64,000 bases of DNA, taken from contig NZ_FRCH01000001.1 of the NCBI RefSeq assembly GCF_900142825.1, positions 1,550,001 through 1,614,000 of the forward strand. The letters are read 5' to 3'. The stretch's first letter is position 1. The number at the start of each line of letters is the position of its first letter. Below, in pieces: positions 522 through 19,582 of the stretch. The stretch is from Rhodanobacter sp. OK091. Its GTDB lineage: Bacteria; Pseudomonadota; Gammaproteobacteria; Xanthomonadales; Rhodanobacteraceae. Made by a program: the position numbers and the translations under genes. The notes beneath the pieces are model-generated. The model saw only the letters and a list, made by a program, of their open reading frames with translations. It was not told the DNA's origin and searched no databases.

Positions 522-1214
522 ATGCTTGAAATTCTCCACCAGGACGACGCGCTGATCGCAGTGAACAAGCCGGCGGGCCTCGCCGTGCATCGCTCGAAGA
601 TGGTCGGCAATACCGAGGAATTCCTGATCGACCAGCTGCGCGAACAGATCGGCGACAGCGTGTATCTGGCGCACCGGCTCGATCGCGCCACCAGCGGCGT
701 GCTGCTGGTGGCGCGCAGCAAAGAGGTCGCCGCCGCGCTGGGCGAGCAGTTCATGGGTCGCGCGGTGCGCAAGCAATACCTGGTGGTCGTACGCGGCTGG
801 CCCGACCCGCTGGAAGACGTGATCGACTACCCACTGCCCGGCTCGCGCGAAACCGGCCCGCGCCGCGAAGCGCGCACGCATTACCAGCGGCTGGCCACGA
901 TCGAGGTACCGATCGAGCTCGGCCGTTATCCGCAGCAGCGCTACGCGCTGGTGCAGGCCGAGCCCGAGAGCGGCCGCTTCCGCCAAATCCGCAAGCACCT
1001 GGCGCACATCCACCACCCGGTCATCGGCGACTGTCAGCATGGCCGTGGTGATCACAACCGGCTGTACAAGCAGCACTTCGGCTGTCACCGCATGCTGCTG
1101 CATGCGTGGCGGTTGCGCTTTGCGCATCCGCTCAACGGCGCCGTGATGGAGGTTGAGGCTCCGCTGGACGTGGCCTACGCCGGGCTGCTTCAACGCTTCG
1201 GCTGGACCTTTTGA
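522..1214 (+). CDS. truC: tRNA pseudouridine(65) synthase TruC
   Basis: This 230-residue RluA-family pseudouridine synthase carries the catalytic signature HRLDRATSG at residues 51-59, with Asp54 the expected nucleophile. The N-terminal VNKPAGLAVHRS stretch and the short length without an S4 domain fit TruC, which converts U65 of tRNAs to pseudouridine, better than RluC or RluD. The stop codon is followed at once by a repeat block of the GAGTGAGAAACGAG family. The assignment to TruC rather than another short RluA paralogue is from family knowledge and was not tested by alignment. Confidence 0.88.
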   Translation: MLEILHQDDALIAVNKPAGLAVHRSKMVGNTEEFLIDQLREQIGDSVYLAHRLDRATSGVLLVARSKEVAAALGEQFMGRAVRKQYLVVVRGWPDPLEDVIDYPLPGSRETGPRREARTHYQRLATIEVPIELGRYPQQRYALVQAEPESGRFRQIRKHLAHIHHPVIGDCQHGRGDHNRLYKQHFGCHRMLLHAWRLRFAHPLNGAVMEVEAPLDVAYAGLLQRFGWTF

Positions 1215-1337
1215 GGAGCGAGTGATGGAGCGAGGAGTGAGAAACGAGTGGAAAAGCAATCCGTGCCGCTTTTGACTTTCTCTCGTTTCTCACTCCTCGC
1301 TTCACCTACTCACTTCTCGCCCTCTACACTGGCCCAC
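1215..1337. repeat. ORF-less copy of the GAGTGAGAAACGAG inverted-repeat family (copy 1)
   Basis: The whole truC-arfB gap is one repeat block. AGCGAGGAGTGAGAAACGAG at 1229-1248 is repeated as a perfect 20-bp inverse complement at 1282-1301, leaving a 33-nt loop. The right arm shares TCTCTCGTTTCTCACTCCTC with the right terminal repeat of the four-helix-bundle element at 18095-18582. The block begins directly after the truC stop codon. It could fold into a strong RNA hairpin and act as a terminator or processing site. It contains no gene of its own. Confidence 0.8.
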
Positions 1338-12539: not shown

Positions 12540-12642
12540 GGCGAGAAACGAGTGGGGAGGAGTGAGAAGAAACGAGAGCAAGCGCCGCCAAGCCGCAATC
12601 CGCACTTCTCTCGTCACTCACTCCTCTTCACTCACTCCTGTT
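12540..12642. repeat. ORF-less copy of the GAGTGAGAAACGAG inverted-repeat family (copy 2)
   Basis: The entire gap between the convergent aceA and comM stops is repeat sequence. The right 31 nt (12608-12638) differ at only two positions from the right terminal repeat (18552-18582) of the element in nrdAB. The left side opens with GCGAGAAACGAG and contains GAGGAGTGAG at 12557-12566. This side also resembles the sequence at the 3' end of the four-helix-bundle gene. About 30 nt of unrelated core separate the arms and include GCAATCCG, which copy 1 also has. The block may serve as a bidirectional terminator. Confidence 0.8.
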
Positions 12643-14142
12643 TCAAAACCGGCGGTATTGCAGCGCTTCGGCCAAATGCTCGCGCTCCAGCAAGGCCGCG
12701 CCACCATCGAGGTCGGCGATCGTACGCGCGACCCGCAATATGCGGTGATACGCACGCGCAGACAAACCCAACCGCTCCAGCGCAGCTTCGAACCAACGCC
12801 GTTCGGCCGAGCCCAGGGCGCAATCACGTTCCAGTTCGCGCGTGCTGATTTCCGCGTTCGGCCGGCCAGCTCGCATCAACGAATGCCGGCGTGCCTCGAG
12901 CACGCGTGCACGCACCGTGGCCGAATCCTCATCTCGTCCGCTGCGCGGCGAGCCCAGATCGGCCAGCGGCACCTGGGGCACTTCCACACAAAGATCGATG
13001 CGATCGAGCAGCGGCCCGGAAATGCGCGAGCGGTAACGCTGGATCTGATCCGGCGTGCATTGGCAACGCTGACTGGGATCGCCGGCGTAACCGCACGGGC
13101 ACGGATTCATCGCCGCCACCAGCTGGAACTGCGCAGGGAACGTCGACTGCCGCGCCGCCCGCGAGATCATGATGTGGCCAGATTCCATCGGCTCGCGCAG
13201 TACTTCCAGCACGTGCCGGCTGAACTCCGGCAACTCGTCCAGGAACAGCACGCCGTTATGTGCCAGCGAGATCTCGCCCGGACGCGGATACGAACCACCA
13301 CCCACCAACGCCACCGCCGACGCGGTGTGGTGCGGCGAGCGGAATGGCCGCCGTCGCCAGCGCGCCAGATCGGTGGTCTGCCCAGCCACCGACCAGACGG
13401 CGCAGGTTTCCAGTGCCTCCGACTCGGACAGCGGCGGCAGAATACCCGGCAGACGTTCGGCCAGCATGGTCTTGCCGGTGCCCGGCGGCCCTATCAGCAA
13501 CAGATGGTGGCCGCCTACGGCGGTGATCTCCAACGCACGGCGCGCCTGCAGCTGGCCACGTACATCGCTCAGGTCGGGACCGTCCTCGGCGCCGCCATTG
13601 CTGGGAATGCCCACCGGGGTGGACAGCTCATGCGCGCCGCGCAGCCAGCCGCATACCTCGGCCAGCGTATCGGCAACCCGGACATCCACATCGGGTACCA
13701 GCGCAGCTTCGGCGGCATTTTCGCGCGGTACAACCACGCGTCGGCCGCGCGCTCGCGCGCGCAGCAGCGCCGGCAGCACACCGGAGACGCGGCGCAGGAT
13801 GCCGGTCAGGGCCAGTTCGCCGAGAAATTCGCAGTCGTCCAGTTTCTCGCGCGGCACCTGACCACTGGCGGCGAGAATACCCAGCGCGATCGGCAAATCG
13901 AATCGACCACCATCCTTGGGCAGCTCGGCCGGCGCCAGATTCACGGTGACGCGGCGGTTGGGATATTCAAAAGCGGTGTTCTGGATCGCCACACGCACGC
14001 GATCGCGCGCCTCGCGCACCGCCGCCTCGGGCAGGCCGACGATATTGGTGGCGGGCAGACCGCCGGACAGATGCACTTCGACCATCACCTGCGGTGCGGC
14101 GATCCCTTCCTGGGCGCGACTGAGGGTGACGGCAAGACTCAT
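12643..14142 (-). CDS. comM: YifB-family Mg-chelatase-like AAA+ ATPase ComM
   Basis: This 499-residue protein starts with the Lon-protease-like N-domain (MSLAVTLSRAQEGIAAPQVM, LPATNIVGLPEAAVREA). It continues with an AAA+ Mg-chelatase-like core carrying Walker A GPPGTGKTM and Walker B GVLFLDELPE. A Cys-rich segment CPCGYAGDPSQRCQC follows, then the chelatase-type C-domain. ComM is a hexameric helicase that drives branch migration during natural transformation. I chose the ATG at 14142; an upstream ATG would add 22 non-conserved residues. It converges with aceA across repeat copy 2. Confidence 0.94.
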   Translation of the reverse strand: MSLAVTLSRAQEGIAAPQVMVEVHLSGGLPATNIVGLPEAAVREARDRVRVAIQNTAFEYPNRRVTVNLAPAELPKDGGRFDLPIALGILAASGQVPREKLDDCEFLGELALTGILRRVSGVLPALLRARARGRRVVVPRENAAEAALVPDVDVRVADTLAEVCGWLRGAHELSTPVGIPSNGGAEDGPDLSDVRGQLQARRALEITAVGGHHLLLIGPPGTGKTMLAERLPGILPPLSESEALETCAVWSVAGQTTDLARWRRRPFRSPHHTASAVALVGGGSYPRPGEISLAHNGVLFLDELPEFSRHVLEVLREPMESGHIMISRAARQSTFPAQFQLVAAMNPCPCGYAGDPSQRCQCTPDQIQRYRSRISGPLLDRIDLCVEVPQVPLADLGSPRSGRDEDSATVRARVLEARRHSLMRAGRPNAEISTRELERDCALGSAERRWFEAALERLGLSARAYHRILRVARTIADLDGGAALLEREHLAEALQYRRF

Positions 14143-15201: not shown

Positions 15202-15249
15202 ACACAAACTATTGGGTTGACCATGCTCATGGCACCCGATATGTTGTGT
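15202..15249 (+). promoter_or_regulatory. nrdAB promoter with two NrdR-like boxes
   Basis: TTGACC (15217-15222), 17 nt, TATGTT (15240-15245) form a good sigma70 promoter whose start would fall at about 15252, where the riboswitch begins. Two 16-nt sequences resemble NrdR boxes: ACACAAACTATTGGGT at 15202-15217 and ACCCGATATGTTGTGT at 15234-15249. They begin exactly 32 bp apart, about three helical turns, the usual NrdR arrangement. They overlap the -35 and -10 boxes, as expected for repression by the ATP/dATP-sensing NrdR. Confidence 0.6.
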
Positions 15250-15440
15250 CCGTCGGTGCCCGTCCAGACGCGATCGTCGGTCGGGCTTAAAAGGGAATCC
15301 GGTGTAATTCCGGAACTGCCCCGCAGCGGTAAAGCGGAAACGAAAGCACCCACATGCACTGGCCCTCGGCGGCTGGGAAGCGGGCGCAAGTAGGAGGATC
15401 GCGAGATCCATGTCCGCAAGTCCGAAGACCTGCCGGCACA
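15250..15440 (+). ncRNA. Cobalamin (B12) riboswitch upstream of nrdA
   Basis: The leader contains the conserved core words of the cobalamin riboswitch in order. These are TTAAAAGGGAATCCGGTG (about 15287-15304), AATTCCGGAACTGCCCCGCA followed by GCGGTAA, and the B12 box AAGTCCGAAGACCTGCCGGC at 15418-15437. The boundaries are approximate. An inverted GGGA/TCCC pair lies just downstream in the 165-nt stretch before the nrdA start and could form the expression platform. In bacteria that also have a B12-dependent class II reductase, this switch turns off the B12-independent nrdAB when cobalamin is present. The rest of the 515-bp glnB-nrdA gap holds only the promoter region. Confidence 0.93.
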
Positions 15441-15605
15441 TCGGGACGAACGTATCCCGGTGCGTAGTGACGGCTTCCGCGGGGAGGCACGTCGCGGTGC
15501 AGTGAGCCCCATGGCGCCTGCATTGCGGGCCGTCCCCGGAATCCATCGCTTCAGGCCCTGCGCGCGGGAGCAGGTGTTTGATGTCCATGCCGGGAGCCAC
15601 CAGCC

Positions 15606-18089
15606 ATGCAGCACCTCGATACCGCAGCCCGCGAGCGCGCCACCGCGCGCGTCGATTCACCCGCCACCGGAGCGGCCGCACCGTCCGCACCTGAAACCGC
15701 TTTCACCCTGACCCCGTCGCACAGTCCGTCCCAGATGCACGTGACCAAGCGCAACGGCGGCCGGGAAATCGTCGACGTCAACAAGATCGTGCGCGCGGTG
15801 ACCCGCAGCAGCGAAGGCCTGCATGGTGTCGACCCCCTGCGCGTGGCGCTGAAGACGATTGGTGGCCTGTACGACGGCGCCACCACGCAGGAGCTGGATC
15901 AGCTGTCGATCCGCACTGCCGCTGCGCTGACCGCCGAGGAACCCGAATACGGCCAGCTCGCTGCGCGCCTGCTCGGCGCCTACATCGACAAGGAAGTGAG
16001 CGGTCAGGAGATCCAGAGCTTTTCGCAATCGATCGCGCGCGGCGCGGAACTGGGCATCCTCAATGCGCGCCTGCGCGACTTTGTCGCCACCAACGCGCGC
16101 AAATTGAACGATGCGATCGATCCGCTCGCCACGCGCCGCTTCGAATACTTCGGCTTGCGCACGGTGTACGACCGCTACTTGCTGCGCCATCCGCAGCAGC
16201 GCTTCGTGATCGAGACGCCGCAGCATTTTTTCATGCGCATCGCCTGCGCGCTCGGCGGCAACGAGATCGGCGAGACACTTGAACTCTATCGGCTGCTGTC
16301 ATCGCTCGAATACATCGCCAGCTCGCCGACGCTATTCAACGCCGGCACCCGCCACGAGCAGCTCAGTTCGTGCTACCTGCTCGATTCGCCGGTGGACTCG
16401 CTGGAGTCGATCTACGACAAGTACGCCGACGTCGCCAAGCTCAGCAAGTTCGCCGGCGGCATCGGCCTGGCCTATTCGCGCGTGCGTTCGCGTGGCTCGC
16501 TGATCAAGGGCACCAACGGACATTCGAATGGCCTGCTGCCGTGGCTGAAGACGCTGGATGCGTCGGTCGCCGCAGTGAACCAGGGCGGCAAGCGCAAGGG
16601 CGCGGCCTGCGTCTACCTGGAATCGTGGCATGCCGACATCGAGGATTTCCTCGAACTGCGCGACAACACCGGCGATGACGCGCGCCGCGCGCACAACCTC
16701 AACATCGCGAACTGGATCCCCGACGAGTTCATGCGCCGGGTCGAGAGCGATGGCGACTGGTCGCTGTTCGATCCGAAGGTCATGCCGCAGCTGGTCGACA
16801 GCTGGGGCGAGACATTCGATCGGCTTTACCGCGAGGCGGAGGCCGACGGCTTGGCCGTGAAGACGGTGAAAGCGCGCGAACTGTACGCCCGCATGATGCG
16901 CACGCTGGCGCAGACCGGCAACGGCTGGATGACGTTCAAGGATCGCTGCAATGCCACCAGCAACCAGACTGCCCATGCCGACAACGTGATCCACCTGTCG
17001 AACCTGTGCACCGAGATCCTCGAAGTGAGCTCGGCCAGCGAGACGGCTGTTTGCAACCTCGGCTCGGTGAATCTGGCACGGCATGTGGTCCACGCCGCCG
17101 ATGGAAGCCACGCATTCGATTTCGAGCAGCTCGCCTCGACCGTGCGCACCGCGGTGCGCCAGCTCAACCGGGTGATCGACCTGAACTTCTATCCGATCGA
17201 CACCGCACGCACCGCGAACATGAAGTGGCGCCCGGTCGGTCTCGGTGTGATGGGCTTGCAGGACGTGTTCTTCAAATTGCGCCTGCCGTTCGATTCGACG
17301 GAAGCGCTGGCGCTGTCCAGCCGCATCGCCGAAGAGATCTATTTCCACGCCTTGTCGATGTCGACCGAGCTGGCCGAGGTCGAAGGCGCGCACCCCGGTT
17401 TCGCGGAAAGCCGCGCGGCGAACGGCGAGCTGCAGTTCGACTACTGGTCGAACGTCGCACCGCAAGACAACGCACGCTGGGACGCCTTGCGCGAACGGAT
17501 CAAGCAGCACGGCCTGCGCAACTCGCTGCTGATCGCGATCGCACCGACCGCCACGATCGCCTCGATCGCCGGCTGCTACGAATGCATCGAGCCGCAGGTC
17601 AGCAACCTGTTCAAGCGCGAAACGCTGTCCGGCGACTTTCTGCAAGTGAACCGCTACCTCGCCGACGAACTGAAAACGCTGGGACTGTGGACGCAGGAAA
17701 TCCGCGACGCGATCAAGCTGGCCGAAGGCTCGATCCAGAGCATCCACGCGATTCCGGAACGGCTGCGCACGATTTACCGCACGGTGTGGGAACTGCCGCA
17801 GAAGGCACTGATCGAACTGGCCGCCGCGCGCGGTGCGTACATCGACCAGAGCCAGTCGCTGAACCTGTTCATGGAGAATCCGAACATCGGCCAGCTCAGC
17901 TCGATGTACATGTATGCCTGGAAGGCTGGCATCAAGACCACTTATTACCTGCGCTCGCGTCCAGCCACGAAAATCACCAAGACCACGGTATCGGCAGACA
18001 GGACCGTACTCGTCGTGGATCAGGCACAAGCCAATGCGGCCGTGTTCTGCTCGCTGGAGAATCCCGAGTATTGCGAGGCTTGCCAGTAG
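15606..18089 (+). CDS. nrdA: Class Ia ribonucleoside-diphosphate reductase, alpha subunit
   Basis: This 827-residue large subunit reduces NDPs to dNDPs. An ATP-cone lies near the N-terminus (VTKRNGGREIVDVNKIVRAV). The active-site loop NLCTEI carries the Asn-Cys-Glu triad, with the partner redox cysteine in SSCYLLD. The C-terminus ends in CEACQ, the mobile redox CxxC. The ~45 residues before the ATP-cone are low in conservation, and an internal ATG lies at the VTKR segment, so the start is uncertain. The promoter carries NrdR-like boxes and a B12 riboswitch. nrdB follows only after a 488-bp inserted element. Confidence 0.96.
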   Translation: MQHLDTAARERATARVDSPATGAAAPSAPETAFTLTPSHSPSQMHVTKRNGGREIVDVNKIVRAVTRSSEGLHGVDPLRVALKTIGGLYDGATTQELDQLSIRTAAALTAEEPEYGQLAARLLGAYIDKEVSGQEIQSFSQSIARGAELGILNARLRDFVATNARKLNDAIDPLATRRFEYFGLRTVYDRYLLRHPQQRFVIETPQHFFMRIACALGGNEIGETLELYRLLSSLEYIASSPTLFNAGTRHEQLSSCYLLDSPVDSLESIYDKYADVAKLSKFAGGIGLAYSRVRSRGSLIKGTNGHSNGLLPWLKTLDASVAAVNQGGKRKGAACVYLESWHADIEDFLELRDNTGDDARRAHNLNIANWIPDEFMRRVESDGDWSLFDPKVMPQLVDSWGETFDRLYREAEADGLAVKTVKARELYARMMRTLAQTGNGWMTFKDRCNATSNQTAHADNVIHLSNLCTEILEVSSASETAVCNLGSVNLARHVVHAADGSHAFDFEQLASTVRTAVRQLNRVIDLNFYPIDTARTANMKWRPVGLGVMGLQDVFFKLRLPFDSTEALALSSRIAEEIYFHALSMSTELAEVEGAHPGFAESRAANGELQFDYWSNVAPQDNARWDALRERIKQHGLRNSLLIAIAPTATIASIAGCYECIEPQVSNLFKRETLSGDFLQVNRYLADELKTLGLWTQEIRDAIKLAEGSIQSIHAIPERLRTIYRTVWELPQKALIELAAARGAYIDQSQSLNLFMENPNIGQLSSMYMYAWKAGIKTTYYLRSRPATKITKTTVSADRTVLVVDQAQANAAVFCSLENPEYCEACQ

Positions 18090-18094
18090 AGCGA

Positions 18095-18582
18095 GGAGTG
18101 AGTGTGGAGGAGTGAGAAACGAGAGGAGGCAACGACAGTCCTTCGAACCCCTCTCTCCACTCACTCTTCTTCATTCGTTTCTCGCCTTGCGGCGCATGGC
18201 AGTGCACATGCGACTGACCTGATCGAGGGCAGAGCGGACAGCCTCCGTTTCGCTTTCGGGAAACCAGCCCAGCTGTTCGCACAAGGTGACTTGCGTTTCC
18301 AGCTCGGCGACAGAGCCTTGGGCAATGGCAAGGAACTGGGCCTTCTCCCGTTTCGATTCTCGCGTCCAGCCCTCGGCGATGTTGCTTGGGACGGAAACCG
18401 CAGCCCGCGTAAGCTGGCTTCGCATCCCATACATCTCTTCCCGCGGGAGCAGGGCCGTCAGCCGATAAATCTCCCGCGCCACTTCCATTGCCCGGTTCCA
18501 CACCACTGCTTCTCGATAATGCATAGGACCTCCCTGTCATGAGTGCATCTTCTCTCGTTTCTCACTCCTCTTCACTCACTCC
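18095..18582. mobile_element. Putative four-helix-bundle element with 31-bp terminal inverted repeats
   Basis: The 31 nt at 18095-18125 and the inverse complement of 18552-18582 agree at 29 positions; both contain GAGGAGTGAGAAACGAGAG. They bound 488 bp that separate nrdA from nrdB and contain one gene, on the opposite strand, for a four-helix-bundle protein. Further inverted copies of the same words lie just inside the left end (18160-18187). The arrangement recalls 23S rRNA intervening sequences, where an ORF of this same protein family sits inside a stem made by complementary ends. No transposase or clear target duplication is visible. Mobility is inferred from the two ORF-less relatives at 1215-1337 and 12540-12642. 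Confidence 0.6.
18171..18524 (-). CDS. Four-helix bundle protein (23S rRNA intervening-sequence / Avd-like family)
   Basis: This 117-residue protein has the family signature: N-terminal YREAVVWNRAMEVAREIYRL, central RAAVSVPSNIAEGWTRES, and FLAIAQGSVAELETQ before the last helix. The family (PF05635/TIGR02436 type) comprises basic pentameric helical bundles first seen in 23S rRNA intervening sequences. They are related to Avd of diversity-generating retroelements, and no enzymatic role is known. GGGAGG lies 5 nt before the ATG. The last residues (RKARNE) are encoded by the GAGAAACGA repeat word itself. The gene is antisense to nrdAB, and its start lies 14 bp from the nrdB start on the other strand. 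Confidence 0.9.
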   Translation of the reverse strand: MHYREAVVWNRAMEVAREIYRLTALLPREEMYGMRSQLTRAAVSVPSNIAEGWTRESKREKAQFLAIAQGSVAELETQVTLCEQLGWFPESETEAVRSALDQVSRMCTAMRRKARNE

Positions 18583-19582
18583 TCACCTGCTCGACCCCGG
18601 CTTCGAGCTGACACTCCGTCCGATGCGCTATCCCGGCTTCTACGAGATGTATCGCAATGCGATCAAGAACACTTGGACGGTCGAGGAAGTGGATTTCTCG
18701 ATGGACACGCGCGACCTCAATGCGAAGATGTCGTCGGCCGACCGCCATCTGATCCAGCGGCTGGTTGCGTTCTTCGCTACCGGCGACACCATCGTGTCGA
18801 ACAATCTGGTGCTGAACCTGTACCAGCACATCAACGCGCCGGAAGCGCGCATGTATCTTTCGCGCCAGTTGTACGAAGAAGCGTTGCACGTGCAGTTCTA
18901 CCTCACCTTGCTCGATACCTATATTCCCGATCCGGCCGAGCGCAACGGCGCGTTCGCGGCGATCGAGACGATCCCGTCGATCCGGCAGAAGGGGGCGTTC
19001 TGCTTCAAGTGGATCGATTCGATCCAGGGCCTGCGCCGGTTGGAAACCCGCGAACAGCGCCGCCAGTTCCTGCTCAACCTGATCTGTTTCGCCGCCTGCA
19101 TCGAAGGGCTGTTCTTCTACGCCGCGTTCGCCTACGTCTACTACCTGCGCTCACGCGGCCTGCTGCACGGCCTCGCGGCCGGCACCAACTGGGTGTTCCG
19201 CGACGAGAGCGGACACATGGCATTCGCGTTCGAGGTGGTTCGCACCGTGCGCGAACAGGAACCGGATCTTTTCGACGACACCATGCGCGCGCAGGTCGAG
19301 GAAATGATGGAAGACGCGATCGCCTGCGAAACCCAGTTCGCCGAGGACGTACTCGCCGGCGGCGTGGTCGGCATGTCGGTGAAAGACATGCGCCAGTACC
19401 TGGAATACTGCGCCGATCAGCGCCTGGCCCAGCTCGACATGCCGAAGAAATACGGCGCCAAGAATCCATTCGACTTCATGGACCTGCAGGACGTGCAGGA
19501 AGTGGCCAATTTCTTCGAGCGCCGTGTCTCGGCGTATCAGGTCGGCGTGCAGGGCGAGGTGGCATTCGACATGGCGTTCTGA
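18539..19582 (+). CDS. nrdB: Class Ia ribonucleoside-diphosphate reductase, beta subunit
   Basis: This 347-residue R2 subunit carries the diiron/tyrosyl-radical site of class Ia reductase. Iron-ligand helices are visible in YEEALHVQFY and AIETIPSIRQ, and in FRDESGHMAFAFEVV for the second half. Conserved R2 sequence begins at LLDPGFELTLRPMRYPGFY, residue 17. Residues 1-16 (MSASSLVSHSSSLTPH) are encoded by the inserted element, residues 5-15 directly by its right terminal repeat, so the original N-terminus has been replaced. No better in-frame start exists before the conserved core. A weak AGGA lies 10 nt upstream. Transcription must read through the element from nrdA, or start within it. Confidence 0.95.
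   Translation: MSASSLVSHSSSLTPHLLDPGFELTLRPMRYPGFYEMYRNAIKNTWTVEEVDFSMDTRDLNAKMSSADRHLIQRLVAFFATGDTIVSNNLVLNLYQHINAPEARMYLSRQLYEEALHVQFYLTLLDTYIPDPAERNGAFAAIETIPSIRQKGAFCFKWIDSIQGLRRLETREQRRQFLLNLICFAACIEGLFFYAAFAYVYYLRSRGLLHGLAAGTNWVFRDESGHMAFAFEVVRTVREQEPDLFDDTMRAQVEEMMEDAIACETQFAEDVLAGGVVGMSVKDMRQYLEYCADQRLAQLDMPKKYGAKNPFDFMDLQDVQEVANFFERRVSAYQVGVQGEVAFDMAF

Follow-up and report, generated by a model that had tools for sequence, protein, structure and literature searches.

The genes nrdA and nrdB of Rhodanobacter sp. OK091 are separated by an element whose two inverted arms enclose a single gene of the four-helix-bundle family PF05635, and we found that these arms are copies of a repeat dispersed over the whole genome. 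The window analysed here is a stretch of 64,000 nucleotides of contig NZ_FRCH01000001.1 (positions 1,550,001 to 1,614,000). A first-pass annotation made from its sequence had described the element; the genome-wide dispersal of the arms is the main addition to that observation. The arm core (GTGAGAAACGAGAG) has 47 matches with at most one mismatch in the 4.42-Mb genome, the reversed control has none, and the PF05635 gene is present once. The matches sit at 34 places. At the score used, 23 of these qualify as compact inverted pairs; the other 11 include the PF05635 element, the far arm of which falls beyond the 150 nt inspected. Two gene-less hairpins of the same type as the element's arms lie in the window. 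The first (1213..1318) is filled or empty depending on the relative, and its predicted RNA fold (1213-1320) has -63.6 kcal/mol vs a shuffled mean of -30.0; the second (12540..12645), recognised by core matches and RNA fold, is more degenerate (-46.6 kcal/mol vs -27.0).

We tentatively read this pattern as a two-part system resembling that of the REPINs, a reading we place a little short of an even chance, because a single, fixed and conserved gene is found together with cognate hairpins in trans and with orphan hairpins elsewhere. Part one would be a resident PF05635 gene that keeps to its home site, enclosed in a hairpin with heptamer arms, and part two the short gene-less hairpins with matching arms that are scattered over the genome.

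Anatomy of the element between nrdA and nrdB

The two arms (18093..18128 and 18549..18584) are 36 nt each, 92% complementary and 420 nt apart, and enclose one antisense gene. The 31-nt terminal inverted repeats annotated previously are real and fall inside them. A chance origin is ruled out by the count of the 19-mer arm core in the window (5 matches with at most 3 mismatches vs 0.00 expected) and by the control of the arm survey given below. The left arm, heptamer-based and of the GAGTGAG type, begins right behind the stop codon of nrdA (15606..18089, plus strand; NrdA family match). The right arm doubles as code for the residues SLVSHSSSLTP of NrdB: the first codons of nrdB (18539..19582, plus strand; NrdB family match) lie inside the element (18539-18584), and the N-terminal residues MSASSLVSHSSSLTP are the translation of the arm. 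Its outward reading has no stop in any frame and its inward reading has one stop per frame. Partial extra copies of the right arm (17 and 16 nt, 88%; the direct repeats D1 and D3 and the inverted pair I6 of the repeat analysis) are found at 18153..18183, at the 3' end of the PF05635 gene.

The enclosed gene (18171..18524, minus strand) encodes 117 residues that match PF05635 (E 3.2e-35, 121 bits, curated cut-off 33.8) and TIGR02436 (E 5.9e-35, 119.8 bits, curated cut-off 24). The AlphaFold2 monomer model has four helices (7-25, 28-54, 58-84 and 90-116; mean pLDDT 95.9), so that profile matches and model both bear out the single antisense four-helix-bundle gene annotated earlier. PF05635 is the sole Pfam family in this gene and the full-length unit encodes no transposase, as had been noted, which sets it apart from classical insertion sequences and miniature inverted-repeat transposable elements. 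Twelve columns are invariant across 60 aligned relatives, including NIAEG, and the nearest named relative, from Rhodanobacter sp. T12-5, is 95% identical. The gene is under purifying selection, with a dN/dS of 0.06-0.25 (36 of 45 pairs yielding a value, with dS >1 in many). The sole sequence match in the PDB is XCC0516 (2GSC, E 4.4e-25), a homopentamer of four-helix bundles (PMC4990558).

Heptamer arms flank PF05635 genes in other genomes

PF05635 was found in 78 of 233 genomes of the host family, mostly in single copy, and 90 loci were read (weak matches at G013, G114 and G035 and a second piece at G094 were left out). In the test for inverted arms, loci with short flanks were excluded and the control was the identical test 700 nt further out. 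Clear flanking arms are present at 69/90 host-family loci vs 0/85 further out, at 16/17 close loci (L062-L080 without L071, with several genomes recounted) vs 0/15, and at 31/59 distant loci from other phyla vs 0/56. Lags of 7 or 14 nt score best at 84/90 host-family and 48/61 distant loci (L068 and L092 were excluded from this test), and strong runs at lag 7 occur at 52/90 and 22/61 of them vs 0/85 and 2/57 further out. The arm units themselves vary: GAGTGAG-like, GGGATTC, GGGAATN, GGGACYC, GGGAACN, GGGCGAG, GGAGATC, GGTGAGC and others. Arms of the GAGTGAG type were seen beside PF05635 genes at no site but nrdAB, the remaining sites having different 7-mers.

Across the window, Rfam matches are limited to one cobalamin riboswitch and one tRNA, which places the element outside any rRNA gene. 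Twenty of the distant PF05635 loci likewise lie outside rRNA genes, because the DNA examined around them has no Rfam match at all. The suggestion that such genes occur in stem-forming units outside rRNA is therefore supported.

Gene-less hairpins follow the arm type of the resident gene

Gene-less hairpins were identified with strict two-arm patterns allowing at most 70 nt between arms, thereby excluding gene-bearing units. The GAGTGAG type is present in 31 of the 233 genomes, GGGATTC in 21, GGGACTC in 9 and GGGAATN in 49; the reversed patterns gave 0 among the matches listed for all four types. Each type is concentrated in the genomes whose PF05635 gene has arms of that very type: 7/11 vs 24/222 others for GAGTGAG (p 8.7e-5), 11/13 vs 10/220 for GGGATTC (p 1.2e-11), 5/7 vs 4/226 for GGGACTC (p 4.7e-7) and 18/18 vs 31/215 for GGGAATN (p 3.5e-14). 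Permutation within genera gave p values of 0.009, 0.00005, 0.0003 and 0.00005, respectively. Arm types were assigned by eye, leaving 26/90 loci untyped, after the searches for GAGTGAG, GGGATTC and GGGACTC hairpins and before that for GGGAATN; typing by motif rule gave 7/12 vs 24/221 for GAGTGAG (p 2e-4) and 9/9 vs 12/224 for GGGATTC (p 6e-11). Some hairpins also have, on either side, the inner motif AARGC...GCYYT (17/36 GAGTGAG, 9/15 GGGATTC, 5/6 GGGACTC and 1/8 GGGAATN elements, and 0 in every set of shuffled cores). This evidence covers the genomes of the host family; outside them it consists of a single place with gene-less GTGAATG hairpins, in one of 12 distant genomes (three of the 12 have GTGAATG arms).

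Arm type and protein are inherited together. On the protein tree (84 proteins and about 105 columns, many forks being unsure; L046, L222, L223, L225, L230 and L231 were dropped as short or broken), parsimony requires 10 changes of arm type vs 33 of host genus for the same 63 typed rows, which hold nine arm types. Grouped by the similarity of their two flanks, the 90 loci form sets of 35, 13, 10, 9, 6, 6, 4, 2 and 2, plus three singletons. The PF05635 gene thus keeps to about nine fixed shared sites. The first-pass annotation had suggested that the element carrying the gene may be what spreads, which these sites do not support; it is the gene-less hairpin that is dispersed.

Several observations weigh against a two-part system. 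Arm type can in large part not be separated from chromosomal site and protein clade, because most flank groups hold one arm type. The informative exception is the group of 35, which mixes GGGAATN and GGGATTC arms and in which the genomic ratio of GGGATTC to GGGAATN hairpins differs by resident arm type (Mann-Whitney p 5.6e-5); even so, GGGAATN hairpins outnumber GGGATTC hairpins in 5/13 GGGATTC-armed genomes. One of the 12 cross-type cells is significant, as GGGAATN hairpins occur in 9/13 GGGATTC-armed genomes (p 1.5e-4; within-genus 0.002). The presence of a PF05635 gene of any type is not significantly associated with GAGTGAG hairpins (p 0.07 in the host family, 0.22 in the genus), and we rejected bare gene presence as a predictor of these hairpins, only the matching of arm types being significant. 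The evidence for this match is weakest for the window's own GAGTGAG type, because within its genus it amounts to 4/6 vs 14/39 (p 0.20, motif-rule typing), and strongest for the sister types (GGGATTC, window's genus alone, same typing: 6/6 vs 3/39, p 1e-5). The unit encodes neither a nuclease nor a reverse transcriptase. Finally, 21/90 host-family and 28/59 distant loci are without clear arms, and no PF05635 gene was found in 16 genomes with GAGTGAG hairpins, 6 with GGGATTC, 2 with GGGACTC and 15 with GGGAATN. The many genomes with hairpins and no gene found, like the 21 host-family loci without clear arms, are what one would expect if some unknown activity of the host or of a transposon made the heptamer hairpins and PF05635 genes merely happened to lie inside them. 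We consider such a passenger role improbable, since the resident gene's arms are predictive of hairpin type, within genera too, and arms recur beside PF05635 in other phyla.

Filled and empty sites among relatives

Among 30 nrdA-nrdB junctions of the genus, the PF05635 gene is present in 6, a relic in 1 and neither in 23, i.e., the empty sites that the first-pass annotation proposed to look for exist. That annotation named, as evidence against itself, relatives that are all alike at this site together with a repeat that never occurs by other helix-bundle genes; this combination was not found. Its view of a mobile element within an operon is supported in that the site is polymorphic, but not as a lone element hopping in: a one-off insertion into nrdAB is ruled out, as the junction is reused across genera and the repeat is present 47 times. 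What remains of the unit in the relic (G169, L258) is the right arm, still encoding the start of NrdB, plus the gene's first codons. At five resolved gene-bearing sites (the sixth, G186, was not resolved by the script) and at the relic, the arm supplies the first residues of NrdB (MSASSLVSHSSSLTP or similar); at the 23 remaining junctions NrdB starts with MSAQPxRNAHIL or a near variant (22) or MTHPNNHIL (1). In total, 28 PF05635 loci from several Xanthomonadales genera lie at this junction, at least 4 of which (by their arms probably 6) are genomes counted twice.

Transfer or repeated loss of the unit at nrdAB has occurred, because its presence requires five changes on the nrdB tree, four of them forced by supported branches. 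These changes, the isolated gene of G172 (the other six members of its seven-member clade have none) and the sharing of about nine sites by 90 loci would all fit a gene-bearing element that homes between strains into a fixed site, with gene-less hairpins as by-products. Yet repeated loss from an ancestral state would also do, the G169 relic showing that loss occurs; exchange of flanking DNA would give an equal pattern, and no homing enzyme is seen in the unit. We therefore regard homing as distinctly improbable.

Other small genes use the same junction. An antisense gene, which we take to encode a GIY-YIG-like protein, is found there in L241, L242, L247, L248, L250, L251, L256, L258, L259 and L261, bounded by palindromes of the CGTCATCCCAGCGAAAGCTGGGATCCAG type, and may represent a second gene-plus-palindrome unit at this site. 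A forward gene whose product starts with MKRYRNLDG... and is presumably KTSC-like lies between nrdA and nrdB in L238, L240, L243, L244, L245, L249, L250 and L251. Just upstream of nrdA is the cobalamin riboswitch (15237-15451, 109.5 bits); this class I reductase operon may thus be under B12 control.

The gene-less hairpin at 1213-1318 could be followed in 20 relatives. It is present in 7 (G158, G177, G155, G172, G163, G159 and G160), and decayed in 2 (G187 and G192); 7 have a short gap instead (G152, G183, G154, G165, G164, G166 and G161) and 3 have other sequence (G181, G190 and G157). In the last relative, G170 (L289), an unrelated palindrome (AGCGGCTTCAGCCGCGA...) stands in its place, which means that different repeat families use this one intergenic place. 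The protein encoded upstream stops at RFGWTF in the window genome and terminates with GVSEEE or a near variant, encoded by the arm, in 6 filled relatives, whereas it reads on in the 7 empty ones (e.g., RFGWPRPPFNGGVPAPTCHPDAG in G152). The hairpin has thus changed a coding end. On the nrdB tree, the filled G172 and G163 share a supported clade with the empty G161, G164, G165 and G154; a gene-less copy was gained or lost inside a well-supported clade, and both directions fit. The flanks are too diverged among relatives to show a target-site duplication. The site at 12540 has no clean empty counterpart, the matching pieces being about 2 kb apart in relatives such as G149.

Such gains or losses bear on whether the protein has anything to do with mobility. 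It could instead bind heptamer hairpins, as RNA or DNA, and thereby shape the ends of transcripts, the decay of RNA or the expression of its own gene; the hairpins would then multiply through ordinary duplication and be retained as its target sites. The match of arm types holds equally under this account, and the very stable predicted RNA fold of the hairpin at 1213-1320, the selection acting on the gene and its failure to wander between sites all suit it. The turnover of gene-less copies within a well-supported clade does not, and the many genomes with hairpins in which no gene was found would be unexpected if the hairpins met a regulatory need. We deem it unlikely on balance, though a serious contender.

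A possible mechanism and its relation to known systems

In the REPIN-like system that we favour, the four-helix bundle, whose relative XCC0516 is a five-membered ring, would recognise heptamer stems that match its own type, either as extruded single-stranded DNA or as RNA. The protein, not itself a nuclease, would present the stem to the replication or repair enzymes of the host or, alternatively, to a trans-acting reverse transcriptase. As an outcome, copies of cognate hairpins would arise elsewhere in the genome without any movement of the gene. The dispersed repeat, arm anatomy, type match, co-inheritance of arm and protein, purifying selection and filled and empty hairpin sites are observations, from which we infer binding, the form of the nucleic acid and any role in copying. 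We give the most weight to a protein that recognises its hairpin and promotes copying by enzymes of the host, and much of the remainder to binding for a different purpose.

REPIN-RAYT systems combine dispersed extragenic inverted doublets that form hairpins with a single gene that does not move (PMC3116915). The GAGTGAG repeat is similar in its dispersed hairpin-forming inverted doublets (23 of 34 places) and in that gene-less units outnumber the single gene. It differs in that its partner is a four-helix bundle rather than a tyrosine transposase (PF01797) and in that its arms are runs of 7-nt units. The sole RAYT-family gene of the genome (Y1_Tnp, PF01797; L032:1128-1976) is flanked by an inverted repeat of its own (26 nt, 92% complementary), and its 3.3-kb locus has no GAGTGAG core with up to 2 mismatches. 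RAYT-driven GAGTGAG repeats are thus ruled out in this genome. By analogy, the PF05635 unit would work like a REPIN system, although by membership it is not one.

The protein family, the complementary stem-forming ends and the single gene inside are shared with the 23S rRNA intervening sequences (IVS) that carry an IVP/S23 gene (PMC4990558, PMC11270868), but our element lies outside rRNA, has dispersed gene-less copies and has a translated arm. Mobility of IVS was suggested earlier (PMC4990558), and PF05635 frames turn up at scattered insertion sites in the rRNA of bacteria of the candidate phyla radiation (PMC11270868). Intergenic repeats of the heptamer GGGNATC have been described in Xanthomonas and Nostoc, two Xanthomonas genomes having 70 and 75 inverted pairs of them; they were interpreted as G-quadruplex repeats and reported to be generally unassociated with mobile elements (PMC4692102). 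Our GGGAATN and GGGATTC hairpins look like the same kind, whereas the GAGTGAG type is not based on G-tracts. The main text of PMC4692102 mentions neither S23 nor xcc0516, four-helix or helix bundle, and no link between PF05635 and dispersed repeats was found in the titles and abstract openings of the open-licence papers listed. A further relative may be Avd of diversity-generating retroelements: Avd (4DWL) was proposed to be homologous to 2GSC (PMC10053308), which our protein matches. However, its match to the Avd model is weak (E 3.6e-5, 24 bits, below the cut-off of 80), and no reverse transcriptase, template repeat or variable repeat was recognised beside the gene, whose neighbours are NrdA and NrdB (no genome-wide search for reverse transcriptases was made).

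PF05635 proteins are still described as being without known function (PMC4990558). The pairing of protein type with repeat type gives these proteins and the heptamer repeats each a testable partner, and the junction offers the case of a repeat arm that serves as the start of the essential enzyme NrdB. Should the pairing serve copying, a non-nuclease protein could propagate a bacterial hairpin, and the Avd of retroelements would gain a plausible ancestor. The pattern is a hint of a so far overlooked repeat system whose operator is a protein other than a transposase. It is conceivable, though we would sooner doubt than assert it, that PF05635/IVP proteins constitute a widespread second class of transposase-free, trans-acting hairpin-repeat systems in which heptamer stems are recognised, and their copying is driven, by an Avd-like ring. 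If true, this would explain the orphan heptamers of Xanthomonas and perhaps of Nostoc, the suspected mobility of rRNA IVS and the origin of Avd.

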